From positions 3,035,501 through 3,099,500 of the forward strand of contig CP073746.1 of the NCBI GenBank assembly GCA_024397995.1: DNA of 64,000 bases. The letters are read 5' to 3'. Below the pieces are notes generated by a model. The model saw only the letters and a list, made by a program, of their open reading frames with translations, made no database searches and was not told where the DNA came from. The first letter of the stretch is position 1, and every line of letters starts with the position of its first letter. Positions 7,146 to 21,346 of this stretch are shown in pieces. This DNA comes from a bacterium SCSIO 12827. GTDB taxonomy: Bacteria > Pseudomonadota > Alphaproteobacteria > Rhodospirillales > Casp-alpha2. The translations under genes were made by a program, and so were the position numbers.

Positions 7146-7961
7146 ATGTCTCAGGGTCTCAGGACCGTCGTCGTCATTCCCGCCCGTTGGGGCTCGACCC
7201 GCTTTCCCGGCAAACCACTGGCCCTCGTGGCCGGGGTTTCCATGGTGCAGCGGGTCTGGGCGCTTGCTCGCGCGGCCAAGGATGTGGACAGCGTCTGCAT
7301 CGCCACCGACGACGCACGCATTGCCGAGGCCGCCGCCGCGTTCGGTGCCGAAGCGGTGATGACGCCGGAAGGCTGCCGCAACGGCACGGAGCGCGCCCAT
7401 GCTGCTGCTCAGGCCATGGATACGCCGCCGGACGTGATCATCAACCTGCAAGGCGACGCAGTTCTGACCCCACCCTGGGTGATCGCCGCCGTCGCAGGCG
7501 CCTTTGCCGACCCGGAGGCCCGCATCGCCACCCCTGCCGTGGCGCTCAACGATACGCAGTTGGCCGCCCTTGAAGCCCACAAAAAAGAAAGCCCGGCCAG
7601 CGGCACGACCGTTGTCTTGGATAACCGCTCGAACGCGCTCTATTTTTCCAAGGCGATCATCCCTTTCCGCCGCGCCGCAGCCGCCCCGGTTTACCGCCAT
7701 GTCGGTATCTATGGCTATCGGCGCGAGACGTTGGCCGGGCTCGTCGACCTGCCGGAAAGTACATTGGAAAAAACCGAGGGCCTGGAACAACTGCGCGCCC
7801 TGGAAAACGGAATCCCCATCCGCGTCGTGCCCGTGGATTACGCCGGGCGCACACATTGGTCTGTCGATAGCCCCGCCGATCTGACTGCCGCCGAAGACCT
7901 GATCGCCCGCGAAGGCGAACTACTGACCGCCTATGACGGCACGGGCACCGTCCGTTCATGA
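7146..7961 (+). CDS. kdsB: 3-deoxy-manno-octulosonate cytidylyltransferase-like protein (KdsB family)
   Basis: CMP-KDO synthetase family: activates KDO with CTP for lipopolysaccharide core or capsule. The N-terminus VVVIPARWGSTRFPGKPLA carries the nucleotide-binding signature, and HVGIYGYRRETL and LEKTEGLEQLRALENG match the family's central motifs; 271 residues is slightly longer than usual. GAGGAGAAA lies 6 bases before the chosen ATG at 7146. The usual metal/substrate motif QGDEP reads QGDAV here, a departure from housekeeping KdsB, so it may act on a related sugar acid. It overlaps the downstream phosphatase gene by 4 bases. Confidence 0.82.
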   Translation: MSQGLRTVVVIPARWGSTRFPGKPLALVAGVSMVQRVWALARAAKDVDSVCIATDDARIAEAAAAFGAEAVMTPEGCRNGTERAHAAAQAMDTPPDVIINLQGDAVLTPPWVIAAVAGAFADPEARIATPAVALNDTQLAALEAHKKESPASGTTVVLDNRSNALYFSKAIIPFRRAAAAPVYRHVGIYGYRRETLAGLVDLPESTLEKTEGLEQLRALENGIPIRVVPVDYAGRTHWSVDSPADLTAAEDLIAREGELLTAYDGTGTVRS

Positions 7962-8620
7962 AGCTTCTGCTGGTCCGCCACGGCAATACTTTCGAAACGG
8001 GTGAGACGCCGGTCCGCGTCGGCGCCAACGAGGACCTGCCCCTGACCGCCGCCGGCGAGGACCAGGCCCATGCGCTGGCCGCTCAATTGAAAGCTTCTGC
8101 CATCCGCCCCGATCTGTTCGTCTGTGGACCGCTCAAACGCACCCGCCGGCATACGGAGATTGTCATGGCGGATCTTGCTGCGCCGGGCGCGGCCGAGATC
8201 GACCCGCGGTTGATGGAAATCGATTACGGTGCCTGGGGCGGGATGAGCGACGGCGACATCGTCGCCCGCTTCGGCCCGGTGGCGGCGCGCGAACTCGACG
8301 CCTGGGAAAAAGATAGCCGCTGGCCAACGGAAACCGTCAAATGGATGCCCGGCGCCGAAACGGTGACGCGCAACCTCCGCAATCTGACGGCAGAATTAAC
8401 AGCGCGCCTGGGCGCGGATGAAACAGCGCTGGTCTGTTCGTCCAACGGTATCCTGCGTTATTTCCTGGAGTTCACCCCGGACGGCCTCGCCGGCCATCAG
8501 GTGGCGGGCAAGGCCAAGATGGCGACGGGGGCCGCGTCGTTGCTCGACGTTTCGGACGGCGAGACCCACGTCCTGTTCTGGAACGTCAAGGCGGGCATGC
8601 GACTGCCCGGCGCAATCTGA
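7958..8620 (+). CDS. histidine phosphatase family protein
   Basis: Phosphoglycerate-mutase-like phosphatase of 220 residues. The phospho-accepting motif LVRHGNT is at residues 5-11, a partner Arg in GPLKRTRRH near 55, and an acidic DYGAWGG segment follows; the family's second His is not in a standard SHGG context (SSNGILRYF instead). It is translationally coupled to the KdsB-like gene through an ATGA overlap, which suggests that its substrate is a phosphorylated sugar or nucleotide-sugar intermediate in the same route. Substrate is inference only. Confidence 0.8.
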   Translation: MKLLLVRHGNTFETGETPVRVGANEDLPLTAAGEDQAHALAAQLKASAIRPDLFVCGPLKRTRRHTEIVMADLAAPGAAEIDPRLMEIDYGAWGGMSDGDIVARFGPVAARELDAWEKDSRWPTETVKWMPGAETVTRNLRNLTAELTARLGADETALVCSSNGILRYFLEFTPDGLAGHQVAGKAKMATGAASLLDVSDGETHVLFWNVKAGMRLPGAI

Positions 8621-11965: not shown

Positions 11966-13636
11966 GTGAGCAGGGCGAACAACATCTTCGAGACGGACCT
12001 GGGCCCCACCCCGGCCAACCATCAGCCGCAAACACCGCTGAGCTTTTTGACCTGGGCGGCATCCGTTTATCCCGATCAACCGGCCGCCATCCACGGCGCG
12101 CGGACCATCTCTTACGGCGACATGTTGGTCCGTTGCCGGCGACTGGCGGGAGCACTGGCGGCGCGCGGCATCGGCCCAGGCGACGCGGTATCCGTCATGG
12201 GCGCCAACACGCCGGAGCTACTGGAAGCGCATTTCGGCATTCCCATGGCGGGCGCCGTGCTGAACGCGCTGAACACCCGGCTCGATGCGCCGACAATCGC
12301 CTTCATCCTGGATCATGCGGAAAGCAAATTGCTGATCACCGACCGGGAACACGCCCCGGTCATCAAGGACGCCCTCGCCAGGCTCGGGCGGAAAATCCCC
12401 GTCATCGACATCGACGACCCGGAAACGGAAGCCCAGGGCGGCACCCGGGGCGAGCACCTGGGCGACATGGACTACGAAGCCTTTCTGTTGACGGGCGACC
12501 CCGAATTCCCGGTCCTGCCGCCGGAAGACGAATGGCAGGCGATCTCGCTCAACTACACCTCCGGCACCACGGGAAATCCGAAAGGTGTCGTCTATCACCA
12601 TCGAGGCGCCTTTGTGACCGCCATGGGCGGCGCCCTGGTTTCGCGCCTCGACCGCCAGTCGCGCTATCTGTGGACCCTGCCCATGTTCCACTGCAACGGC
12701 TGGAGCTACCCCTGGTCGATCACCGCCGCTGCGGGCACACATATCTGCCTGCGCCGGGTCGATCCGGCCCTGATCTTTCCCATGATCGCCAAACATCGCG
12801 TCACCCACATGTGCGGCGCGCCGATCGTCCTCAACATGCTGATCCATGCGCCGGACGCGGTGAAGACCACCTTCGACCAAAAGGTCGAGGTATTCACCGG
12901 CGGCGCCGCCCTACCCTCGGCGGTGATATCGGGTATGGAAAAAATGGGCTTCCGCGTGACCCATCTGTACGGGCTGACGGAATCCTACGGCCCCTCGACC
13001 TATTGCGCCTGGCAGGACGATTGGGGCGACCTTGACCCCGACGCCCAGGCGCAGAAGATCAGCCGCGCCGGCGTGCGCTACCCCACCGTGGCGGGCCAGA
13101 CCGTGATGAACCCGGAGACCATGGAACCCGTGCCCAGCGACGGCCAAACCATGGGTGAAATCATGCTGCGCGGAAACACCATCATGAAGGGCTACCTGAA
13201 GAACCCGCAAGCGACGGAGGCCGCGTTCCGGGGCGGCTGGTTCCATACGGGCGACCTCGCCGTGATGCATCCCGACGGCTATGTGGAAATCAAGGACCGG
13301 TCGAAAGACGTCATCATCTCGGGCGGCGAGAATATTTCGTCGTTGGAGGTCGAGGAATGTCTCTATCGCCATCCTGACGTGATGGAAGCCGCCGTCGTCG
13401 CCAAGACCGACGCCAAATGGGGGGAAACGCCTTGCGCCTTCGTCACCCTGAAACCAGGAGCCGAAGGCCGCATTGATGCCGCGGCCATCATCGACTGGTG
13501 CCGGGCCAACATGGCCCACTACAAGGCACCGCGCCATGTCGTGTTCACCCCTCTGCCCAAGACATCGACGGGCAAGATTCAGAAGTTCGTGCTGCGCGAC
13601 CGCGCCAACGACACCGACCAGGAGACCAAATCATGA
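11966..13636 (+). CDS. acyl-CoA synthetase (AMP-forming), LvaE-like
   Basis: ATP-dependent acyl-CoA ligase of about 556 residues. The P-loop YTSGTTGNPKG, the ATP/AMP motifs LYGLTESYGPST and FHTGDLAV, and the hinge/C-terminal KDRSKDVIISGGENISS through STGKIQKF are all present. The GTG at 11966 matches the usual N-terminus (NIFETDLG...); an in-frame GTG at 11939 is an alternative. It overlaps the SDR gene by 4 bases. With downstream ACAD, kinase and DUF6285-like genes it parallels LvaE of the Pseudomonas putida levulinate pathway, which forms the CoA thioester. The exact acid (levulinate, 4-hydroxy or other short/medium acid) is inference. Confidence 0.85.
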   Translation: MSRANNIFETDLGPTPANHQPQTPLSFLTWAASVYPDQPAAIHGARTISYGDMLVRCRRLAGALAARGIGPGDAVSVMGANTPELLEAHFGIPMAGAVLNALNTRLDAPTIAFILDHAESKLLITDREHAPVIKDALARLGRKIPVIDIDDPETEAQGGTRGEHLGDMDYEAFLLTGDPEFPVLPPEDEWQAISLNYTSGTTGNPKGVVYHHRGAFVTAMGGALVSRLDRQSRYLWTLPMFHCNGWSYPWSITAAAGTHICLRRVDPALIFPMIAKHRVTHMCGAPIVLNMLIHAPDAVKTTFDQKVEVFTGGAALPSAVISGMEKMGFRVTHLYGLTESYGPSTYCAWQDDWGDLDPDAQAQKISRAGVRYPTVAGQTVMNPETMEPVPSDGQTMGEIMLRGNTIMKGYLKNPQATEAAFRGGWFHTGDLAVMHPDGYVEIKDRSKDVIISGGENISSLEVEECLYRHPDVMEAAVVAKTDAKWGETPCAFVTLKPGAEGRIDAAAIIDWCRANMAHYKAPRHVVFTPLPKTSTGKIQKFVLRDRANDTDQETKS

Positions 13637-14409
13637 GCCGCTTCTTCCGCGATGACCTGCTGGCAGATCGGGTGGCGCTGGTCACCGGGGCGTCCTCCGG
13701 CCTGGGCCGCCGTTTTGCCGAAGTTCTGGCCGCCCACGGCGCCGCTGTCGCCTGCTGTGCCCGGCGACGCGAGAAACTTGCTGAAACGGTCGATACGATC
13801 ACCGCCGCCGGCGGACAGGCGCTGGCCGTCGAAATGGACGTGACCGATCGGGAGTCCGTCGCCGACGCGTTCGAGACCGCCGACCGGGCGCTTGGCCAGG
13901 TCACGATCCTGATTAACAACGCGGGCCTTGCTTCCACGGACCGTGCCATCGACCTGGATCCCGCGACTTGGAATCAAATCATGGCAACAAACCTGACCGG
14001 CGCCTGGACCGTCGCCCAGCGTGCCGCTAATGACATGATCGCCGCCGGCAGGCCCGGCACCATCGTCAACGTCGCCTCGGTCCTGGGCCTGCGTCAGGCG
14101 GGCGGCGTCATGCCTTATGCGGTGTCCAAGGCGGGAATTGTGCAGATGACCAAGTCGCTGGCCCTGGAATGGGCGCGGCATAAAATCCGGGTTAACGCCA
14201 TCGCCCCCCGCTACATCGAGACGGATCTGAACCGGGATTTCCTGGAAAGCGAAGGCGGCCAGACCCTCATGAAACGCATTCCCCAACGCCGCTTCGGCAA
14301 GCCGGAAGACCTGGAAGGCGCCCTATTACTGTTGGCCTCGGACGCGTCGGATTTCATGACCGGCGAAGTCGTCGCCGTCGACGGCGGCCATTTGGTCAAT
14401 ACGCTTTAA
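13633..14409 (+). CDS. SDR-family dehydrogenase, LvaD-like
   Basis: 258-residue short-chain dehydrogenase with TGASSGLGRRF cofactor motif, NNAG, a catalytic Ser in NVASVLG and YAVSK (Tyr/Lys) at the active site; the C-terminus VVAVDGGHLV is typical of the FabG-like group. It is coupled to the ligase by an ATGA overlap. In the lva pathway the equivalent SDR oxidises the 3-hydroxyacyl-CoA produced after 4-phosphate removal, so a similar role here is plausible. Cofactor preference is not clear. Confidence 0.85.
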   Translation: MSRFFRDDLLADRVALVTGASSGLGRRFAEVLAAHGAAVACCARRREKLAETVDTITAAGGQALAVEMDVTDRESVADAFETADRALGQVTILINNAGLASTDRAIDLDPATWNQIMATNLTGAWTVAQRAANDMIAAGRPGTIVNVASVLGLRQAGGVMPYAVSKAGIVQMTKSLALEWARHKIRVNAIAPRYIETDLNRDFLESEGGQTLMKRIPQRRFGKPEDLEGALLLLASDASDFMTGEVVAVDGGHLVNTL

Positions 14410-14434
14410 GGACTTTTCGCCCTTGATAAAGGGC

Positions 14435-14755
14435 TCAACTGTCTCGGGAATTCGAAAAACGGTCGTCGGCAATATCCAGGGACCAATCGAATTGCACGGC
14501 GAATCCCCCGTCGAATACGCGGGCGACACGGCCCGGCACATGGGCACGGCCACGAATGATCAGCAGAATCTCGTCATCGACCTGAACCGGGCCGTCCTGA
14601 GGTTCACTGCCTTCGGGATAGACAATCGCCGCCCCACCGACGGACATGTCATACAGCTTTCCGCCCCGGTAAGGGCTGCCGCCGTTGACTTCCACGTCCC
14701 CGTACACGACGGAACGGGGGCTTCTGCGTGCGTCTTGTTGTTCGTTCAAGTCCAT
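14435..14755 (-). CDS. PilZ-domain protein (cyclic-di-GMP binding)
   Basis: Small single PilZ-domain protein. The c-di-GMP motifs RRSPR (near residue 10, RxxxR form) and DMSVGGA (DxSxxG) are both present, so ligand binding is likely. AAGGA precedes the start at 14755; an ATG at 14764 or 14851 is also possible. It is on the opposite strand between the two forward halves of the catabolic cluster, and appears unrelated to it. A 6-bp hairpin (14419-14434) separates its stop from the SDR gene. Confidence 0.82.
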   Translation of the reverse strand: MDLNEQQDARRSPRSVVYGDVEVNGGSPYRGGKLYDMSVGGAAIVYPEGSEPQDGPVQVDDEILLIIRGRAHVPGRVARVFDGGFAVQFDWSLDIADDRFSNSRDS

Positions 14756-14976
14756 GGCGGTCATCCTTGGCAACAAAGACCCCGCCCTCAAAAGCTGTTT
14801 TCTTTTAAGACGGGAGAAATTTAGGCCACAACCCTGATCTTTCCCTGACAAGATTAAAAATCAGACAAGAATTCATGCCCCATTTCCAATTTTTCCGGCA
14901 AATCTGATAGTCTCGCGGCCCGCCGCCTGGTGAAAATGACCCGGCCAACGACGCAGAAAGACAGGAACCCGCCTTC

Positions 14977-16176
14977 ATGGATTTCAATCTGACCCTGGAA
15001 GTGGACGAAACCCGGCAGGCCATCCGCCGATTCGTCGCCGACCACATCCTTCCGCTGGAAGCCGACCCGACCAGTTTCGACGACCACGAGAACATTCGCC
15101 TGGATCTGCTGGACGAGCTGCGCGCCAAGGCGAAAAGCGAAGGGCTTTGGGCGCTTTCCATGCCGACGGCGCGCGGCGGACGTGGCTTCGACACGGTCGG
15201 CATGGCTGCGTGCTACGAGGAAATGAACCGTTCCATCTTCGGGCCCGTGGTGTTCAACGCCGCCGCCCCCGACGACGGCAACATGTTCGTCCTCAACAAG
15301 GTCGCAACGGACGCGCAGAAGGAACAATGGTTGCAGCCGATCATCGACGGCGCCGTGCGGTCCTCGATCATCATGACGGAACCGGCACCGGGCGCCGGGT
15401 CCGACCCGTCGGGCATGATGCGCACGCGGGCGGAAAAGAAAGGCGACACATGGGTCGTCCACGGCCGCAAATGGTTCATCACCGGGGCCGGCGTGGCCGA
15501 CCATTTCATTCTGCTGGCACGCACGTCCGACGACGCGCGGCGCAACCTGACCGCCTTCCTGTTCCACAAGGATCAGCCGGGCTGGGAAATCGTGCGCCGC
15601 ATCCCGATCATGGGGCCGGAAGAACACGGCGGCCATTGCGAACTGACCTTCGACGGCCTGGAAATCCCCGACGAAAACCGACTGATGGGCGTCGGCGAAG
15701 GCATGAAATGCGTACAGATCAGGCTTGGCACCGCGCGACTGACCCATTGCATGCGCTGGCTGGGTCTGGCCAAACGGTCGCTGGAAATCGCCGATGAATA
15801 CATCTCCGAACGGGAAGCCTTCGGCACCCGCCTGGCCGACCGGGAAAGCGTGCAGTTGCTTTTGGGCGACGCGGCCAAGGAAATCCAGATCGGCCGCCTG
15901 TTGACCATGCATGCTGCCTGGACCCTCGACCAGGGCAGCCGGGCCCGGGCCGAGGTTTCGACCGCCAAGGTCCAGGTCGCCGACACCCTGCACAAATGCG
16001 TCGATACGGCCGTGCAGTTGTGCGGCGCCCGTGGCTATTCCAAGGACACGGTTCTGGAATGGATCTACCGCTACGCCCGCCAGGCGCGCCTGGTCGATGG
16101 TGCTTCCGAGGTTCACAAGATGGTTCTGGCCGGCCAGTTCCGCGAACAGGGCCTTGATTACTGGCACTGGGGCTGA
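14977..16176 (+). CDS. acyl-CoA dehydrogenase, ACAD10/11 (LvaC)-like
   Basis: 399-residue FAD-dependent acyl-CoA dehydrogenase. Flavin/substrate motifs (SIIMTEPAPGAGSDPSGM, WFITGAGVADHF, RLGTARLTHCMRW) and the late VDGASEVHK segment with catalytic Glu fit the ACAD10/11 branch, where the enzyme works with an APH-type kinase on 4-hydroxyacyl-CoAs. The next gene is such a kinase, 8 bases away. In the P. putida lva pathway LvaC converts the 4-phosphoacyl-CoA to the enoyl-CoA. Starts at an ATG with a CGCAGAAAGACAGGAAC site. Confidence 0.88.
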   Translation: MDFNLTLEVDETRQAIRRFVADHILPLEADPTSFDDHENIRLDLLDELRAKAKSEGLWALSMPTARGGRGFDTVGMAACYEEMNRSIFGPVVFNAAAPDDGNMFVLNKVATDAQKEQWLQPIIDGAVRSSIIMTEPAPGAGSDPSGMMRTRAEKKGDTWVVHGRKWFITGAGVADHFILLARTSDDARRNLTAFLFHKDQPGWEIVRRIPIMGPEEHGGHCELTFDGLEIPDENRLMGVGEGMKCVQIRLGTARLTHCMRWLGLAKRSLEIADEYISEREAFGTRLADRESVQLLLGDAAKEIQIGRLLTMHAAWTLDQGSRARAEVSTAKVQVADTLHKCVDTAVQLCGARGYSKDTVLEWIYRYARQARLVDGASEVHKMVLAGQFREQGLDYWHWG

Positions 16177-16184
16177 GGCTGCCC

Positions 16185-17210
16185 GTGGCCGGAAACCTGA
16201 CATCCGATGAGCGCGCCCGTCTGACAGACTGGCTCGCGGAGCAGGCCGGGGCGGCGATGCGCATTTTGGCGACGGAACGTCTGTCCGGCGGGGCGATCCA
16301 GGAAAACCATCGGCTGGAAATCGACGTCGCCGGCGGTCCCTGGCCCGGCCGTCACGATCTTGTCCTGCGCCGGGACGCGGCCTCCGCCGTCGCCACCAGC
16401 CATTCCCGGGCCGAGGAATTCGCACTGTTGAAGGCCGCACACATGGCCGGGGTCGCCGTGCCGGCCCCTTGCGTTCTGTGCGAGGACCTGGACATTCTGG
16501 GGGTGCCGTTCTTTCTCATGCATCGGGTGATGGGCGAGGCCCGGGGCAGCCGGCTGGTCAAGGAAGCGCCCAGCGCGGATCTGGTCTACGCCATCGGCGC
16601 CAACCTGGCGCGCATTCACAGCATCACGCCGCAGGGCGCCGACCTGGCCTTTCTCGGCCCACTGCCCAAGGACCCAGCCCGCGCCGCCGTGGCACAGTAC
16701 CGTGCCTATCTGGATGCCCTGCCCGACCCCCATCCCGCCGTCGAATGGGGCTTGGCCTGGCTTTCCGATCATGCCCCCGATCCCAGCGCCATCGTGCTGT
16801 GCCACCGCGACTACCGCATCGGCAACCTGATGATTGCACATGAAGAAACAGGCGGCACCCTGTCCGCGACCCTGGATTGGGAATTTGCCGGCTGGTCCGA
16901 TCCGCTGGAGGATATCGGCTGGTTCCTCGCCAAATGCTGGCGCTTCGGGCGCTGGGAGGAAGAAGCCGGCGGCCTGGGCCCGCGGGACGCCTTCCTCGCG
17001 GGTTATGAAGACGCCTCGGGCCGCACGGTCGACCCCGCCACCGTCACCTATTGGGAGGTCATGGCCCATGTGCGCTGGGCGGTGATCGCCCTGCAGCAGG
17101 CCTGGCGGCATGTATCGGGCGAGGAGCCGTCCCTCGAACTGGCGCTGACCGCCCATGTGGTGCCGGAACTCGAGGCGGAAATTCTCGCCATGACGGGAGA
17201 AGGCACATGA
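16185..17210 (+). CDS. aminoglycoside-phosphotransferase-fold kinase, LvaA/ACAD10-kinase-like
   Basis: 341-residue kinase-like protein. The Brenner motif LCHRDYRIGNLMI (HxDx4N catalytic loop) and LDWEFAGWSDPLEDIGWF (metal-binding Asp) show an active APH/choline-kinase fold. Placement straight after an ACAD and before a DUF6285-like gene matches the 4-hydroxyacyl-CoA kinase LvaA; antibiotic resistance is not indicated. GTG start; ends overlapping the next gene by 4 bases (ATGA). Confidence 0.88.
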   Translation: MAGNLTSDERARLTDWLAEQAGAAMRILATERLSGGAIQENHRLEIDVAGGPWPGRHDLVLRRDAASAVATSHSRAEEFALLKAAHMAGVAVPAPCVLCEDLDILGVPFFLMHRVMGEARGSRLVKEAPSADLVYAIGANLARIHSITPQGADLAFLGPLPKDPARAAVAQYRAYLDALPDPHPAVEWGLAWLSDHAPDPSAIVLCHRDYRIGNLMIAHEETGGTLSATLDWEFAGWSDPLEDIGWFLAKCWRFGRWEEEAGGLGPRDAFLAGYEDASGRTVDPATVTYWEVMAHVRWAVIALQQAWRHVSGEEPSLELALTAHVVPELEAEILAMTGEGT

Positions 17211-17560
17211 GAAAAAACCCAAGCGGCCCCGCCCTGACCATGATCGCCGACGCCACGGAGGCCGGCGCCGCCCCCGATGCCGGCAATGCCAAATACGTCG
17301 CGGCGATGATCCGCAACGCCCGTGCCATCGCCGCGCGTCAGGCCGCCGCCGGGGATGCGCCGGAACGGGCCGAGACGGCGGCCCTCAAGGCACTTCTGGG
17401 TGCGGACGGCAGCCTTCAAGACCTCAATCGTGCCCTCGCCCAAGCCATCCGCGACGGCAATGCCCCCCAGGGCACCCATGCCCATTTGACCGCCGTCACG
17501 CAGGCGGAATTGGGTGAGAGCAACCCCCGCTATCTGGCGCGGCTTAAAGAAACCGGCTGA
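17207..17560 (+). CDS. DUF6285-like small protein (LvaB-like kinase partner)
   Basis: 117-residue helical protein. YVAAMIRNARAIAARQ, then ALLGADGSLQDLNRALAQAI and a closing NPRYLARLK block resemble DUF6285 proteins, which sit next to APH-type kinases. In P. putida LvaB is the small partner required for LvaA activity. ATGA overlap with the kinase gene implies coupled translation and a probable complex. Family assignment is from memory of the pattern, so moderate confidence. Confidence 0.7.
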   Translation: MRKNPSGPALTMIADATEAGAAPDAGNAKYVAAMIRNARAIAARQAAAGDAPERAETAALKALLGADGSLQDLNRALAQAIRDGNAPQGTHAHLTAVTQAELGESNPRYLARLKETG

Positions 17561-17562
17561 TC

Positions 17563-18888
17563 ATGTCGGAGGTTCACGATGGCAGGCTGACCGGTCAGTT
17601 CTACGATCTCGCGACCGGCGACGAGGACGCCCGTCTGTGCCGTGACATCCCGGAAGAACAATGCCGCGAACAACCCGTCAATTTTCTTGCCCAGACGGCG
17701 GCCCAGGCCCTCAGCAAGACCGGCGACGCTTTGGCCGACACCAAGGTCGTCCTGCCCTGGCTTTTAGGCACGATGGGCGCGCCCGCCGCCTTCGCGGGAC
17801 TGCTTGTTCCGATCCGGGAATCGCTGGCGTTGATGCCGCAAATACTGGTCGGCGGCGTCATCCGCCAGTTCCCCCGGCGCAAGGCGTTCTGGGCCGTCGC
17901 CTCGATCGCGCAGGGGGCATGCATCCTGGCCATGGCCGGCGCGGCCGTTGCGGGTCTGGAGGGCATGGCGGCGGGATGGACGGTGACCACGCTGGTGGTG
18001 CTGTTCAGTCTGGCGCGCGGCGTCGCGTCCATCGCCGCCAAGGACGTTCTGGGCAAGACCGTGTCCAAGGGCCGTCGCGGGCGCGTCAGCGGACATGCCG
18101 CCACGATTGCCGGGCTCGCTGCCGGGGCCGTGGGCACCTACCTGATGCTGAGCCCCGCCGCGACCCGGCCTGACTGGCTGCTCTATGCCCTTGTCGCCGG
18201 TGCCGGAATCTGCTGGTTCGTCGCGGCGGCGGTCTATCTTCGGATTGTCGAGCATCCCGGCGCCGTTAGCGGCGGGCGCGGCATCAACGATCTGGTGCGC
18301 GAACAGGTCTCGATCCTGGCCAAGGACCGGCAGTTGCAGCGGTTTCTGGCGACCCGGGCCTTGATGATTTCGACAGCGTTGGTGGGCCCGCTTTACGTGA
18401 CCCTGGCACAGCAGCAAACGGGCCTGGGGCTTGATGGCTTGGGCTGGCTGATCATCGCTTCGGGTCTGTCCGCAGCGCTTAGTTCGTCGTTCTGGGGCAT
18501 TCTCTCCGATCGTTCCTCCCGCGCCACAATGGCCCTGGCGGCGACGATCGCGGGCGCGCTCGGCCCCGTGGCGCTGCTGGCCCTGACGCATATGCCCGGC
18601 ATTGCCGGCTCAATCATCTTTTACGCTGCCATTCTATTCGTGCTGGGCGTCGCCCATGCCGGCGTACGCATCGGGCGCAAAACCCACGTCGTCGACCTTG
18701 CGGGCGGTGACCGCAAGGCCGAGTACGTCGCGCTGAGCAACACCGTGATCGGCATACTGTTGCTGGGAACCGGCGCGCTGACGGGGGCCTTGATGGGGAT
18801 CAGCATCACGGCGGCGATCGGAACGCTGTCAGTGCTCGCCCTGTTGGGCGCGGGCCTGGCCATGACGATGGCCAACGTCCAGGAATGA
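17563..18888 (+). CDS. MFS transporter
   Basis: 441 residues with about twelve membrane segments and a long (~45 residue) hydrophilic N-terminus containing two Cys. No substrate motif is recognisable. The gene begins 2 bases after the DUF6285-like stop, so it belongs to the ACAD-kinase operon and may carry the organic acid substrate or a product. Confidence 0.75.
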   Translation: MSEVHDGRLTGQFYDLATGDEDARLCRDIPEEQCREQPVNFLAQTAAQALSKTGDALADTKVVLPWLLGTMGAPAAFAGLLVPIRESLALMPQILVGGVIRQFPRRKAFWAVASIAQGACILAMAGAAVAGLEGMAAGWTVTTLVVLFSLARGVASIAAKDVLGKTVSKGRRGRVSGHAATIAGLAAGAVGTYLMLSPAATRPDWLLYALVAGAGICWFVAAAVYLRIVEHPGAVSGGRGINDLVREQVSILAKDRQLQRFLATRALMISTALVGPLYVTLAQQQTGLGLDGLGWLIIASGLSAALSSSFWGILSDRSSRATMALAATIAGALGPVALLALTHMPGIAGSIIFYAAILFVLGVAHAGVRIGRKTHVVDLAGGDRKAEYVALSNTVIGILLLGTGALTGALMGISITAAIGTLSVLALLGAGLAMTMANVQE

Positions 18889-19409: not shown

Positions 19410-20711
19410 ATGTCCATCGTATTGGGATGCATTGCCGACGATTTCACCGGCGCCACGGACCTTGCCAACACCCTGGTCAAGAACGGCATGCGCACGGTCC
19501 AGGTCAACGGCGTGCCCTCGGGCGCCAGCCTGAAGGATCTGGGCGATGCGGAAGCCGTGGTCGTGGCCTTGAAATCACGCACCTGCCCGGTGCACGAAGC
19601 CGTCACCGAATCGCTCGCCGCCCTGGCCTGGCTCAAGGGTCTGGGTACCCGGCAGATCTTCTTCAAGTACTGTTCGACCTTCGATTCCACGGACATCGGC
19701 AATATCGGCCCGGTCGCCGACGCCCTGCTGGACGCGCTCGACGCCGATTTCGCCATCGCCTGCCCGGCCTTTCCGACCACCGGGCGGACGATCTACAAGG
19801 GCTATCTGTTCGTGAACGACGTGCTGTTGTCTGAATCGAGCCTCAAGGATCACCCCCTGACCCCCATGCGCGACGCCAATCTTGTCCGCGTGCTGTCCCG
19901 GCAGACGGACGAGATGGTCGGCCTGGTCGAACACAAGACCGTGCGCAAAGGCCCGGCCGAGGTAAAAGCCGCCTTCGCGTCCCTGAAAAAGAACGGCAAC
20001 CGTTATGCCATCGTCGATGCCCTGGACGACGCCGATCTGGGCGTGATCGGCCAGGCCGTGGCCGATCACCCGTTGGTCACCGGCGGCTCGGGCATTGCGC
20101 TTGGCCTGCCGGAAAACTATCGCCGCCAGGGCCTGTTGGGGGCCGCCGCCAAGGCGCAATTACCGAATGTCACCGGCCCCGCCGTGGTCATTGCCGGAAG
20201 CTGCTCACAAGCCACCCGTGCGCAGGTCGCGCGGGCGAAAAAGCTGTGGCCGACCCATCAGGTCGATCCCCTGGCCCTCGGCGACGTGGTCGAGGCGGCG
20301 CGCGTGTTGGCCGACAAGATATTGGCCGGCCTCAATACCGGACCGCAGCTGATCTATTCCACCGCTGACCCGGATACGGTGCTGAAGGTGCAGTCGGAAA
20401 TGGGCCGCGGTCAGGCGGGTGATACGGTCGAACGGTTCTTCGGACGGCTGGCGCGCAACCTGCGCGACGGCGGCGTGCGGCGCTTCGTCGTCGCCGGCGG
20501 TGAAACGTCGGGCGCCGTGGTTCAGGCGCTGGGCGTACAGGCCATGCGCATCGGCCCGGAAATCGACCCGGGCGTGCCCTGGACGGAAAGCCTGTCCCTA
20601 GGCGCTGGCGGCGAGGCGCCCCTGGCGCTCACCCTCAAGTCCGGCAACTTCGGGGCCGAGGACTTTTTCGAAAAAGCGCTGGCCATGCTCGACGAAAAGG
20701 CCGCCGCATGA
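19410..20711 (+). CDS. otnK: 3-oxo-tetronate kinase OtnK
   Basis: Phosphorylates 3-oxo-tetronate at O-4 in four-carbon acid sugar breakdown. At 433 residues it fits the DUF1537 family length. The N-terminal substrate motif CIADDFTGATDLA and the C-terminal VVAGGETSGAVVQALG nucleotide motif are both intact. The next gene is otnC with an ATGA overlap, so the kinase-decarboxylase pair is present, but the isomerase (otnI) and the initial dehydrogenase are not in this window. Confidence 0.9.
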   Translation: MSIVLGCIADDFTGATDLANTLVKNGMRTVQVNGVPSGASLKDLGDAEAVVVALKSRTCPVHEAVTESLAALAWLKGLGTRQIFFKYCSTFDSTDIGNIGPVADALLDALDADFAIACPAFPTTGRTIYKGYLFVNDVLLSESSLKDHPLTPMRDANLVRVLSRQTDEMVGLVEHKTVRKGPAEVKAAFASLKKNGNRYAIVDALDDADLGVIGQAVADHPLVTGGSGIALGLPENYRRQGLLGAAAKAQLPNVTGPAVVIAGSCSQATRAQVARAKKLWPTHQVDPLALGDVVEAARVLADKILAGLNTGPQLIYSTADPDTVLKVQSEMGRGQAGDTVERFFGRLARNLRDGGVRRFVVAGGETSGAVVQALGVQAMRIGPEIDPGVPWTESLSLGAGGEAPLALTLKSGNFGAEDFFEKALAMLDEKAAA

Positions 20712-21346
20712 CCCCGGAAAACAAACAGCGCGACGAGATTGCTCTTCTTGGAAAATCCCTGTTCGACCGGGGCATGACCTATGCATCGTCCGGCAACATC
20801 AGCGTGCGGACGGAAGACGGCGGCTGGCTGATGACGCCGTCCGGATCCTGCCTGGGACGGCTTGACCCGGAACGCATTTCCAAGCTCGACAAGGACGGCA
20901 ATCACGTCAGTGGCGACAAGCCGACCATCGAGACCTTCCTGCACATGGCCGTCTACGATCAGCGCGCCACGGCCAAGGCCATCGTGCACCTGCATTCGAC
21001 CCATTCGGTCGCCGTCAGTTGTTTGAAGGAAGTGAACCCGAAGAACGTGCTGCCGCCGATCACCGCCTATTACGTGATGAAGGTCGGCACCCTGCCGCTG
21101 ATCCCGTTCTTTCCGCCAGGCAGCGTTGACCTGGCCAAGGCCGTCAAGGAAATGGCGTCGGACCACCACGCGGTATTGCTTGCCAACCACGGGCCCGTGG
21201 TCGCCGGCAAGACGCTGGCTGATGCGGTCTACGCGACGGAAGAACTTGAGGAAACGGCGCGGCTCTACCTCATGCTGCGCGGGCTCGACACCACGTTCCT
21301 TTCGCCGGAACAGGTCGCCGAATTGAAGGCGCGCTTTCCAGGTTGA
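20708..21346 (+). CDS. otnC: 3-oxo-tetronate 4-phosphate decarboxylase OtnC
   Basis: Class II aldolase/adducin-fold decarboxylase of 212 residues that turns 3-oxo-tetronate 4-phosphate into dihydroxyacetone phosphate. Zinc ligands H94 and H96 (HLHSTHS) and a further His in ANHGPVV are visible, with a Glu (E75) as likely catalytic acid. Operon with otnK. Class II aldolases on other phosphosugars remain an alternative, but the neighbour supports OtnC. Confidence 0.88.
   Translation: MTPENKQRDEIALLGKSLFDRGMTYASSGNISVRTEDGGWLMTPSGSCLGRLDPERISKLDKDGNHVSGDKPTIETFLHMAVYDQRATAKAIVHLHSTHSVAVSCLKEVNPKNVLPPITAYYVMKVGTLPLIPFFPPGSVDLAKAVKEMASDHHAVLLANHGPVVAGKTLADAVYATEELEETARLYLMLRGLDTTFLSPEQVAELKARFPG

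Follow-up and report, generated by a model that had tools for sequence, protein, structure and literature searches.

Here we analyzed a stretch of 64,000 nucleotides (hereafter the window) from the alphaproteobacterium SCSIO 12827, of the order Rhodospirillales (assembly GCA_024397995.1, contig CP073746.1, positions 3,035,501 to 3,099,500), which carries relatives of the five proteins LvaE, LvaD, LvaC, LvaA and LvaB of Pseudomonas (E, D, C, A and B below). The genome is a single contig of 3.93 Mb. Gene classes were assigned by Pfam and NCBIfam profile searches of the window proteins. The positions that an earlier note had read for the ligase, the short-chain dehydrogenase/reductase (SDR), the acyl-CoA dehydrogenase (ACAD), the aminoglycoside phosphotransferase-type (APH-type) kinase and the DUF6285 protein were confirmed, and the profile searches bore out their classes; A, B and C had no NCBIfam match above the cut-off. 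The features, in window positions, are:

11966..13636, + strand: LvaE-like acyl-CoA synthetase, 556 amino acids; AMP-binding ligase, NCBIfam PRK08162 (acyl-CoA synthetase); 55.6% identical to LvaE of plasmid p12939-PER
13633..14409, + strand: LvaD-like SDR reductase, 258 amino acids; 52% identical to p12939-PER LvaD
within 14438..14758, - strand: PilZ-domain gene between D and C (PF07238, 1.3e-9); a neighbour outside the pathway
14977..16176, + strand: LvaC-like ACAD, 399 amino acids; 42% identical to p12939-PER LvaC and 41% to P. putida 31753 LvaC; predicted to eliminate phosphate from 4-phosphoacyl-CoA
16185..17210, + strand: LvaA-like APH-type kinase, 341 amino acids, GTG start; 50% identical to p12939-PER LvaA and 52% to that of P. 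putida 31753
17207..17560, + strand: likely LvaB/DUF6285 kinase partner, 117 amino acids (PF19802, 3.4e-19, Pfam only); 45% identical over 91 amino acids to the annotated LvaB
17563..18888, + strand: major facilitator superfamily (MFS) transporter (MFS_1, PF07690, 2.1e-11 over part of the protein, Pfam only); membership doubtful

The reading frames of E and D overlap by 4 bases (ATGA), as do those of A and B (again ATGA), A starts 8 bases after C, and the MFS gene begins 2 bases after B. Between D and C there is a gap of 567 bases, and because the minus-strand PilZ gene, overlooked in the earlier note, lies in this gap, E-D and C-A-B may be separate transcripts in this genome. Scans of the sequence yielded 2 promoter-like sites against 1.1 expected and 9 terminator-like sites against 5.7 expected, and no use was made of either.

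Correspondence with the Pseudomonas lva operon

The exact order of the lva genes in KT2440 is in part our presumption. On plasmid p12939-PER the operon runs from a PrpR-type regulator through the phosphotransferase (A), the annotated LvaB, the ACAD, the SDR and the ligase to a DUF485 protein and a symporter, and the gene content of KT2440 agrees with it (PMC6692424; this paper, PMC12440821 and PMC11342911 are cited from excerpts). All five window proteins match proteins of this plasmid operon, with E at 56% and D at 52%, and alignment of the C, A and B products with LvaC, LvaA and LvaB gave 42%, 50% and 45% (B over 91 amino acids). Against P. putida 31753 the values were 41% for C, 52% for A and 36% over 90 amino acids for B. 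A complete LvaEDCAB-like set in an alphaproteobacterium, as the earlier note had it, is therefore upheld. Within the window's genome D is the best of 33 LvaD matches (the runner-up reaches 42%), E is the best LvaE match, and the DUF6285 profile has a single match; the second-best LvaE match (51%), a paralogue located elsewhere in the genome, was set aside. The annotated LvaB of p12939-PER itself scores against PF19802 at 4.8e-24, and by this score LvaB is a member of DUF6285. Deletion of lvaA, lvaB or lvaC each abolishes growth on levulinate, and LvaB was bound in a pulldown with LvaA (PMC6692424). Thus the window and Pseudomonas share relatives of all five proteins, the A/B overlap and a LvaB that belongs to DUF6285, but in the window the order is E-D followed by C-A-B, a PilZ gene stands between D and C, a MFS gene follows B, and neither an LvaR-type sigma-54 regulator nor a symporter was matched.

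On these grounds we consider it highly probable that the five genes make up an Lva-type route for 4-hydroxy and 4-oxo acids. Support for the route comes from homology, from the catalytic and phosphate-binding residues, from the E/D and A/B overlaps, from co-location, from natural A-B fusions and from the confident predicted fold of one such fusion. The LvaE-like ligase would make the 4-oxo- or 4-hydroxyacyl-CoA, the LvaD-like SDR would reduce the 4-oxo group, the LvaA-like kinase together with the small helical LvaB/DUF6285 protein would phosphorylate the 4-hydroxyl with ATP as donor, and the LvaC-like flavoprotein would eliminate the phosphate to give a 2-enoyl-CoA that could enter beta-oxidation. 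Candidate natural substrates are levulinate, some other short 4-oxo acid and lactone-derived 4-hydroxy acids. That these reactions would run in this bacterium we infer from sequence.

Conservation of the set was examined in 80 genome loci, those that ranked highest among 475 when compared with a kinase-DUF6285 fusion, a choice that favours the presence of DUF6285; some of these loci are cut by contig ends, and the tables hold duplicate genes (for example L106 and G030, L111 and L070, L063 and PaLvaC). The order E-D-C-A-B, or the same order with A and B fused, occurs in 23 of the 80 loci (congeners of the window account for 4 of these), and all five genes are present in any order in 39. Because this order and this co-location are conserved, the set is not a product of chance. 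The order, which the earlier note called rearranged, is thus a common one, and its recurrence bears out the link that the note had drawn between E-D and C-A-B. Three further genera of the window's family (L072, L073, L075, L077, L079 and L083) have E-D-C-A-B uninterrupted by any labelled gene, and within the window's own genus all six congener loci show E, D, PilZ, C, A and B in that order. The MFS carrier, which had been counted as a member, fares worse: it follows B in four of the six congener loci and had no match in the other two or in the other 34 stretches fetched around DUF6285 genes, so that it appears to be an inconstant member whose place in the set is doubtful. Downstream of the set, at 19410-21346 of the window, lie OtnK and OtnC (3-oxo-tetronate kinase and 3-oxo-tetronate-4-phosphate decarboxylase), a position kept in five of the six congener loci, the sixth locus stopping at a contig end.

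More distant clusters keep part of the arrangement. On plasmids of Azospirillum sp. B510, Paroceanicella profunda and Thermus thermophilus HB8 the genes stand in the order SDR, ACAD, kinase, DUF6285, as in the window; unlike the window, the Azospirillum and Thermus clusters have an additional histidine phosphatase, the Thermus C belongs to the Pseudomonas branch, and the window's PilZ and MFS genes had no match in the three stretches. The set is widespread and not unique, and its novelty outside Pseudomonas, as put forward in the earlier note, does not hold, since lvaABCD homologues in Alpha-, Beta- and Gammaproteobacteria have been reported (PMC6692424, citing Rand et al. 2017).

The dehydrogenase and its phosphate-binding residues

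In mouse ACAD11 the elimination of phosphate has been tied to R626, H634 and R637 (the last two within an HCMR motif) and to the catalytic D753, while R631 is common to ACADs (PMC12440821). The window ACAD has R249, R254, H257 and R260 at the same 5-3-3 spacing, plus D374. Among 122 ACAD rows (those covering more than 300 model positions and scoring more than 80 bits, shorter ones being dropped) the full set of elimination-site residues was present in all 109 whose score against the LvaC model reached 300 bits and in none of the 13 that scored lower, although score and motif are not independent here because the model was built from ACADs bearing the motif.

In a tree of 108 LvaC-like rows, with two ACAD10/11-type ACADs as outgroup, 18 rows grouped with the LvaC proteins of Pseudomonas and Thermus (support 0.98), and the remaining 90 joined the window protein at a node with a support of 0.099. 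The window C is 63-97% identical to members of its 90-row group and at most 44% identical to the other 18 rows. Because the support of the 90-row node is so low, this gap in identity is firmer evidence than the tree that the window-type LvaC is, at the level of sequence, distinct from the Pseudomonas branch. By score, the window kind accounts for 61 of the 73 ACADs that pass 400 bits among the 80 loci, and the other kind for the remaining 12. The open-access literature, as far as it was covered, yielded no assayed member of the window's branch.

The mammalian proteins ACAD10 and ACAD11 also combine a kinase with an ACAD, and they share with the window the three Arg, the His and the Asp of the elimination site as well as the catalytic Asp and Asn of the kinase. 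In the window, however, kinase and ACAD are separate polypeptides, the kinase comes from another branch, and it has a DUF6285 partner, whereas none is described for ACAD10/11 in the excerpts of PMC12440821 and PMC11342911.

DUF6285 and two kinds of kinase

The association between DUF6285 and the kinase was also counted in loci chosen without regard to the kinase. When loci were found by DUF6285 alone (58 loci for which DNA was retrieved, 29 of them among relatives, the window's own included, and 29 from a phylum sample in which some lower-scoring matches gave no locus), a kinase adjoined DUF6285 or was fused to it in 57, with fusion in 5. In the set of 80 loci DUF6285 follows the kinase or is fused to it in 79, the remaining locus (L174) ending 0.2 kb behind the kinase at a contig end. 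Fifteen of the 80 are kinase-DUF6285 fusions, and the two frames overlap in 59 of 64 unfused pairs (starts chosen by rule). DUF6285 is present in 28 of 61 relatives, in 39 of 398 genomes of the phylum and in 14 of 148 genomes of the Pseudomonas-type family of G445. The kinase and the DUF6285 protein group with LvaA and LvaB and stand beside their usual partners, and not with different partners, the outcome that the earlier note had named as fatal to its proposal. DUF6285 is therefore, as far as sequence and gene neighbourhood can tell, a likely LvaB-type partner of the kinase.

Structure prediction points in the same direction. For L110, a natural fusion, the AlphaFold2 model had a predicted local distance difference test score (pLDDT) of 94.5 and a predicted template modelling score (pTM) of 0.92, with the DUF6285 part forming helices behind the kinase; read from this pTM value, the two parts are predicted to dock in a fixed way. 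The best solved matches of the fusion model were a 25-hydroxysteroid kinase and other APH-type kinases. The window DUF6285 protein modelled by itself was predicted to be all-helical (pLDDT 93.4, pTM 0.77) and had no credible relative among the solved structures searched (best E 5.5), so that its function is not readable from the fold. In the plasmid search the same protein matched Thermus only (12 records), and plasmid clusters were sought with the ACAD as query instead; the word DUF6285 had no occurrence in the open-access literature searched. Alignment A2 had 118 rows, made up of every one of the 15 fusions, both proteins from the window, and some of the unfused kinases and unfused DUF6285 proteins; 8 of the approximately 95 aligned residues of its DUF6285 rows sat in the wrong part.

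The levulinate cluster of P. citronellolis LA18T shares relatives of A, C and D with the window but has a histidine phosphatase between A and C, and LvaB was reported as missing there; its A, C and ligase are 59%, 78% and 35% identical to those of KT2440 (PMC6692424). Clusters with an LA18T-like order (A, histidine phosphatase, C) do carry DUF6285 between A and the phosphatase (L282, L189-L195, L198 and L167). One of these, L282 in the Pseudomonadaceae-type genome G521, comes close to the LA18T values: its A and C are 58% and 76% identical to those of P. putida 31753, and its ligase is 35% identical to the plasmid LvaE. Its DUF6285 protein shares 49% identity with the P. putida 31753 LvaB. By analogy with these clusters, the small lvaB gene published as absent from the LA18T region was probably overlooked.

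In several loci (L059, L062, L138, L167, L189-L195 and L198) the gene immediately after DUF6285 encodes a histidine phosphatase, and in Azospirillum B510 two annotated pieces of such a phosphatase flank an IS21 element. The phosphatase of these clusters might undo or proofread the 4-phosphoacyl-CoA. A histidine phosphatase at 7958-8620 of the window was rejected as a partner, its best cluster-type match among the matches listed having an E value of 0.002 over 71 residues.

The kinase tree was built from 193 rows, reduced to 184 by removal of near-identical ones, its ACAD10/11-type rows coming from 49 of 53 fetched loci (4 were too short), with at most about 1.5 kb of flank on each side, and from two plasmid kinases. 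The kinases linked to DUF6285 were separated from the ACAD10/11-type kinases with a support of 1.0, and no DUF6285 match was found within about 1.5 kb of the ACAD10/11-type kinases in the 53 fetched loci. The window kinase has D209 and N214 as equivalents of D220 and N225 of ACAD11, and a Glu, not an Arg, at the position of ACAD11 R86, directly before the alpha-C Glu. All 51 ACAD10/11-type rows have an Arg at this position, against 3 of 109 rows of the LvaA type and 2 of 24 in a second DUF6285-linked group, and 104 of the 109 LvaA-type rows have an Arg three residues before the alpha-C Glu, that is, two earlier than R86. The role of R86 in CoA binding rests on modelling (PMC12440821). We considered whether LvaB could replace this CoA-binding Arg, but since an Arg is found two residues earlier, the role of R86 is modelled and the split represents one branch point of the tree, the idea is a clue and not a test.

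The second group is defined by a score below 350 bits against the LvaA-type model and not by a clade, and neither it nor the LvaA-type rows form a clean group in the tree. Its kinases (L030-L051) are found close to an ACAD that has Glu as the base and lacks the phosphate-binding residues; the seven of these ACADs that were read (L085, L093, L094, L097, L101, L102 and L185) have FRQSE in six cases and FRQAE in one. A broader proposal is that DUF6285/LvaB is an obligate docked subunit of the whole kinase branch, which completes or shapes an acyl-CoA site that the ACAD10/11-type kinases build alone, and that the second group feeds the Glu-type ACAD. We hold this only tentatively and regard it as rather unlikely; if true, it would mean an undescribed phosphoacyl-CoA chemistry.

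The kind of kinase that accompanies relatives of the window C also varies. Alphaproteobacterial relatives of the window C pair with a DUF6285-type kinase in Azospirillum and Paroceanicella, and those of Chelatococcus and Sulfitobacter pair with an ACAD10/11-type kinase, with no DUF6285 match in the fetched stretches. A bacterial kinase closer to ACAD10 than to LvaA substitutes for the ACAD10 kinase domain (PMC11342911), and the text of that paper makes no mention of LvaB; this result fits a kind of kinase that needs no LvaB.

Alternative explanations and significance

Several points weigh against the Lva-type route as set out here. One locus (L008, on the 9.8-kb contig L281) has DUF6285 but no kinase on the whole contig, the PilZ gene separates E-D from C-A-B throughout the window's genus, the window LvaC shares only 41-42% identity with the LvaC of Pseudomonas, outside whose branch it falls, and E is without sequence specificity, given that a 51% LvaE match sits elsewhere in the genome. 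Moreover, queries taken from L063 found no PrpR/LvaR-type regulator or symporter among the open reading frames of the whole window (the DUF485 protein was not sought).

The strongest alternative keeps the route but changes its natural substrate from levulinate to 4-hydroxy or 4-oxo acids of another chain length, such as those that gamma-lactones or oxidised lipids would yield. The divergence of LvaC and the missing matches to a Pseudomonas-type regulator and symporter fit such a substrate, as do the membership of E in a general acyl-CoA synthetase subfamily and the branched-chain-amino-acid-type importer that recurs near D-C-A-B-E in Marinobacter-like loci. The LvaD relative, a clear best match at 52%, nevertheless points to a 4-oxo acid, and E is closest to LvaE among the ligases of the genome; we give this alternative a little less than an even chance. 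The importer genes were seen at L154, L158, L165, L166, L172, L178, L179, L181 and L184 (mostly Marinobacter and Alcaligenaceae-like), their clusters among 88 loci compared having 9 members for the binding protein and 9 and 11 for the permeases, with one representative of each annotated; a substrate importer is a possible role.

It is less probable, though conceivable, that the main 4-hydroxyacyl-CoA route of this genome lies elsewhere and that the window set acts as a reserve or handles short chains only. At about 2738880-2745800 of the same contig (L218 on C1, near 2.74 Mb) there is a second ACAD, 34% identical to the window C, with RLGPGRIHHCMR and FADGPDEVHR, and an ACAD10/11-type kinase on the opposite strand about 4.7 kb away, with no DUF6285 match in the stretch. 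Only the window kinase, however, has an adjoining DUF6285 in this genome, and the closest LvaD and LvaE matches belong to the window set. An acyl-CoA ligase match adjoins the second ACAD. Because the genome holds this second kinase and ACAD, normal growth of a single kinase mutant on 4-hydroxyacids, proposed in the earlier note as a refutation, would be a weak one and may mislead.

That E-D is a separate unit merely neighbouring C-A-B would account for the 567-base gap and its PilZ gene, but is very improbable in view of the uninterrupted order in genera of the same family and of its recurrence in 23 of 80 loci. Least probable of all is that C is an ordinary ACAD and that the substrate of the kinase is an unrelated alcohol: kinases of the APH type accept many substrates and the best solved match of the kinase-DUF6285 model is a 25-hydroxysteroid kinase, yet A is 50% identical to LvaA and C has the Asp in place of the usual Glu together with the three phosphate-binding residues, as do all 109 of the rows with at least 300 bits and none of the 13 lower ones.

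Returning to the Lva-type route, we consider the finding real and the pathway reading likely to be right, the window set being a new member of the known Lva kind with a divergent LvaC. What is new is this divergent branch, the pairing of DUF6285 with the kinase and the lvaB probably missed in LA18T, and the finding matters more for what it shows about DUF6285 and about two kinds of kinase than for the set as such. An annotation guess becomes a defined and testable route in Rhodospirillales, and DUF6285, a Pfam family of unknown function, gains a likely role as an LvaB-type kinase partner that the natural single-chain kinase-LvaB fusions make directly testable. The results also call for caution in reading such genomes, as one genome can carry two kinds of likely 4-hydroxyacyl-CoA kinase.

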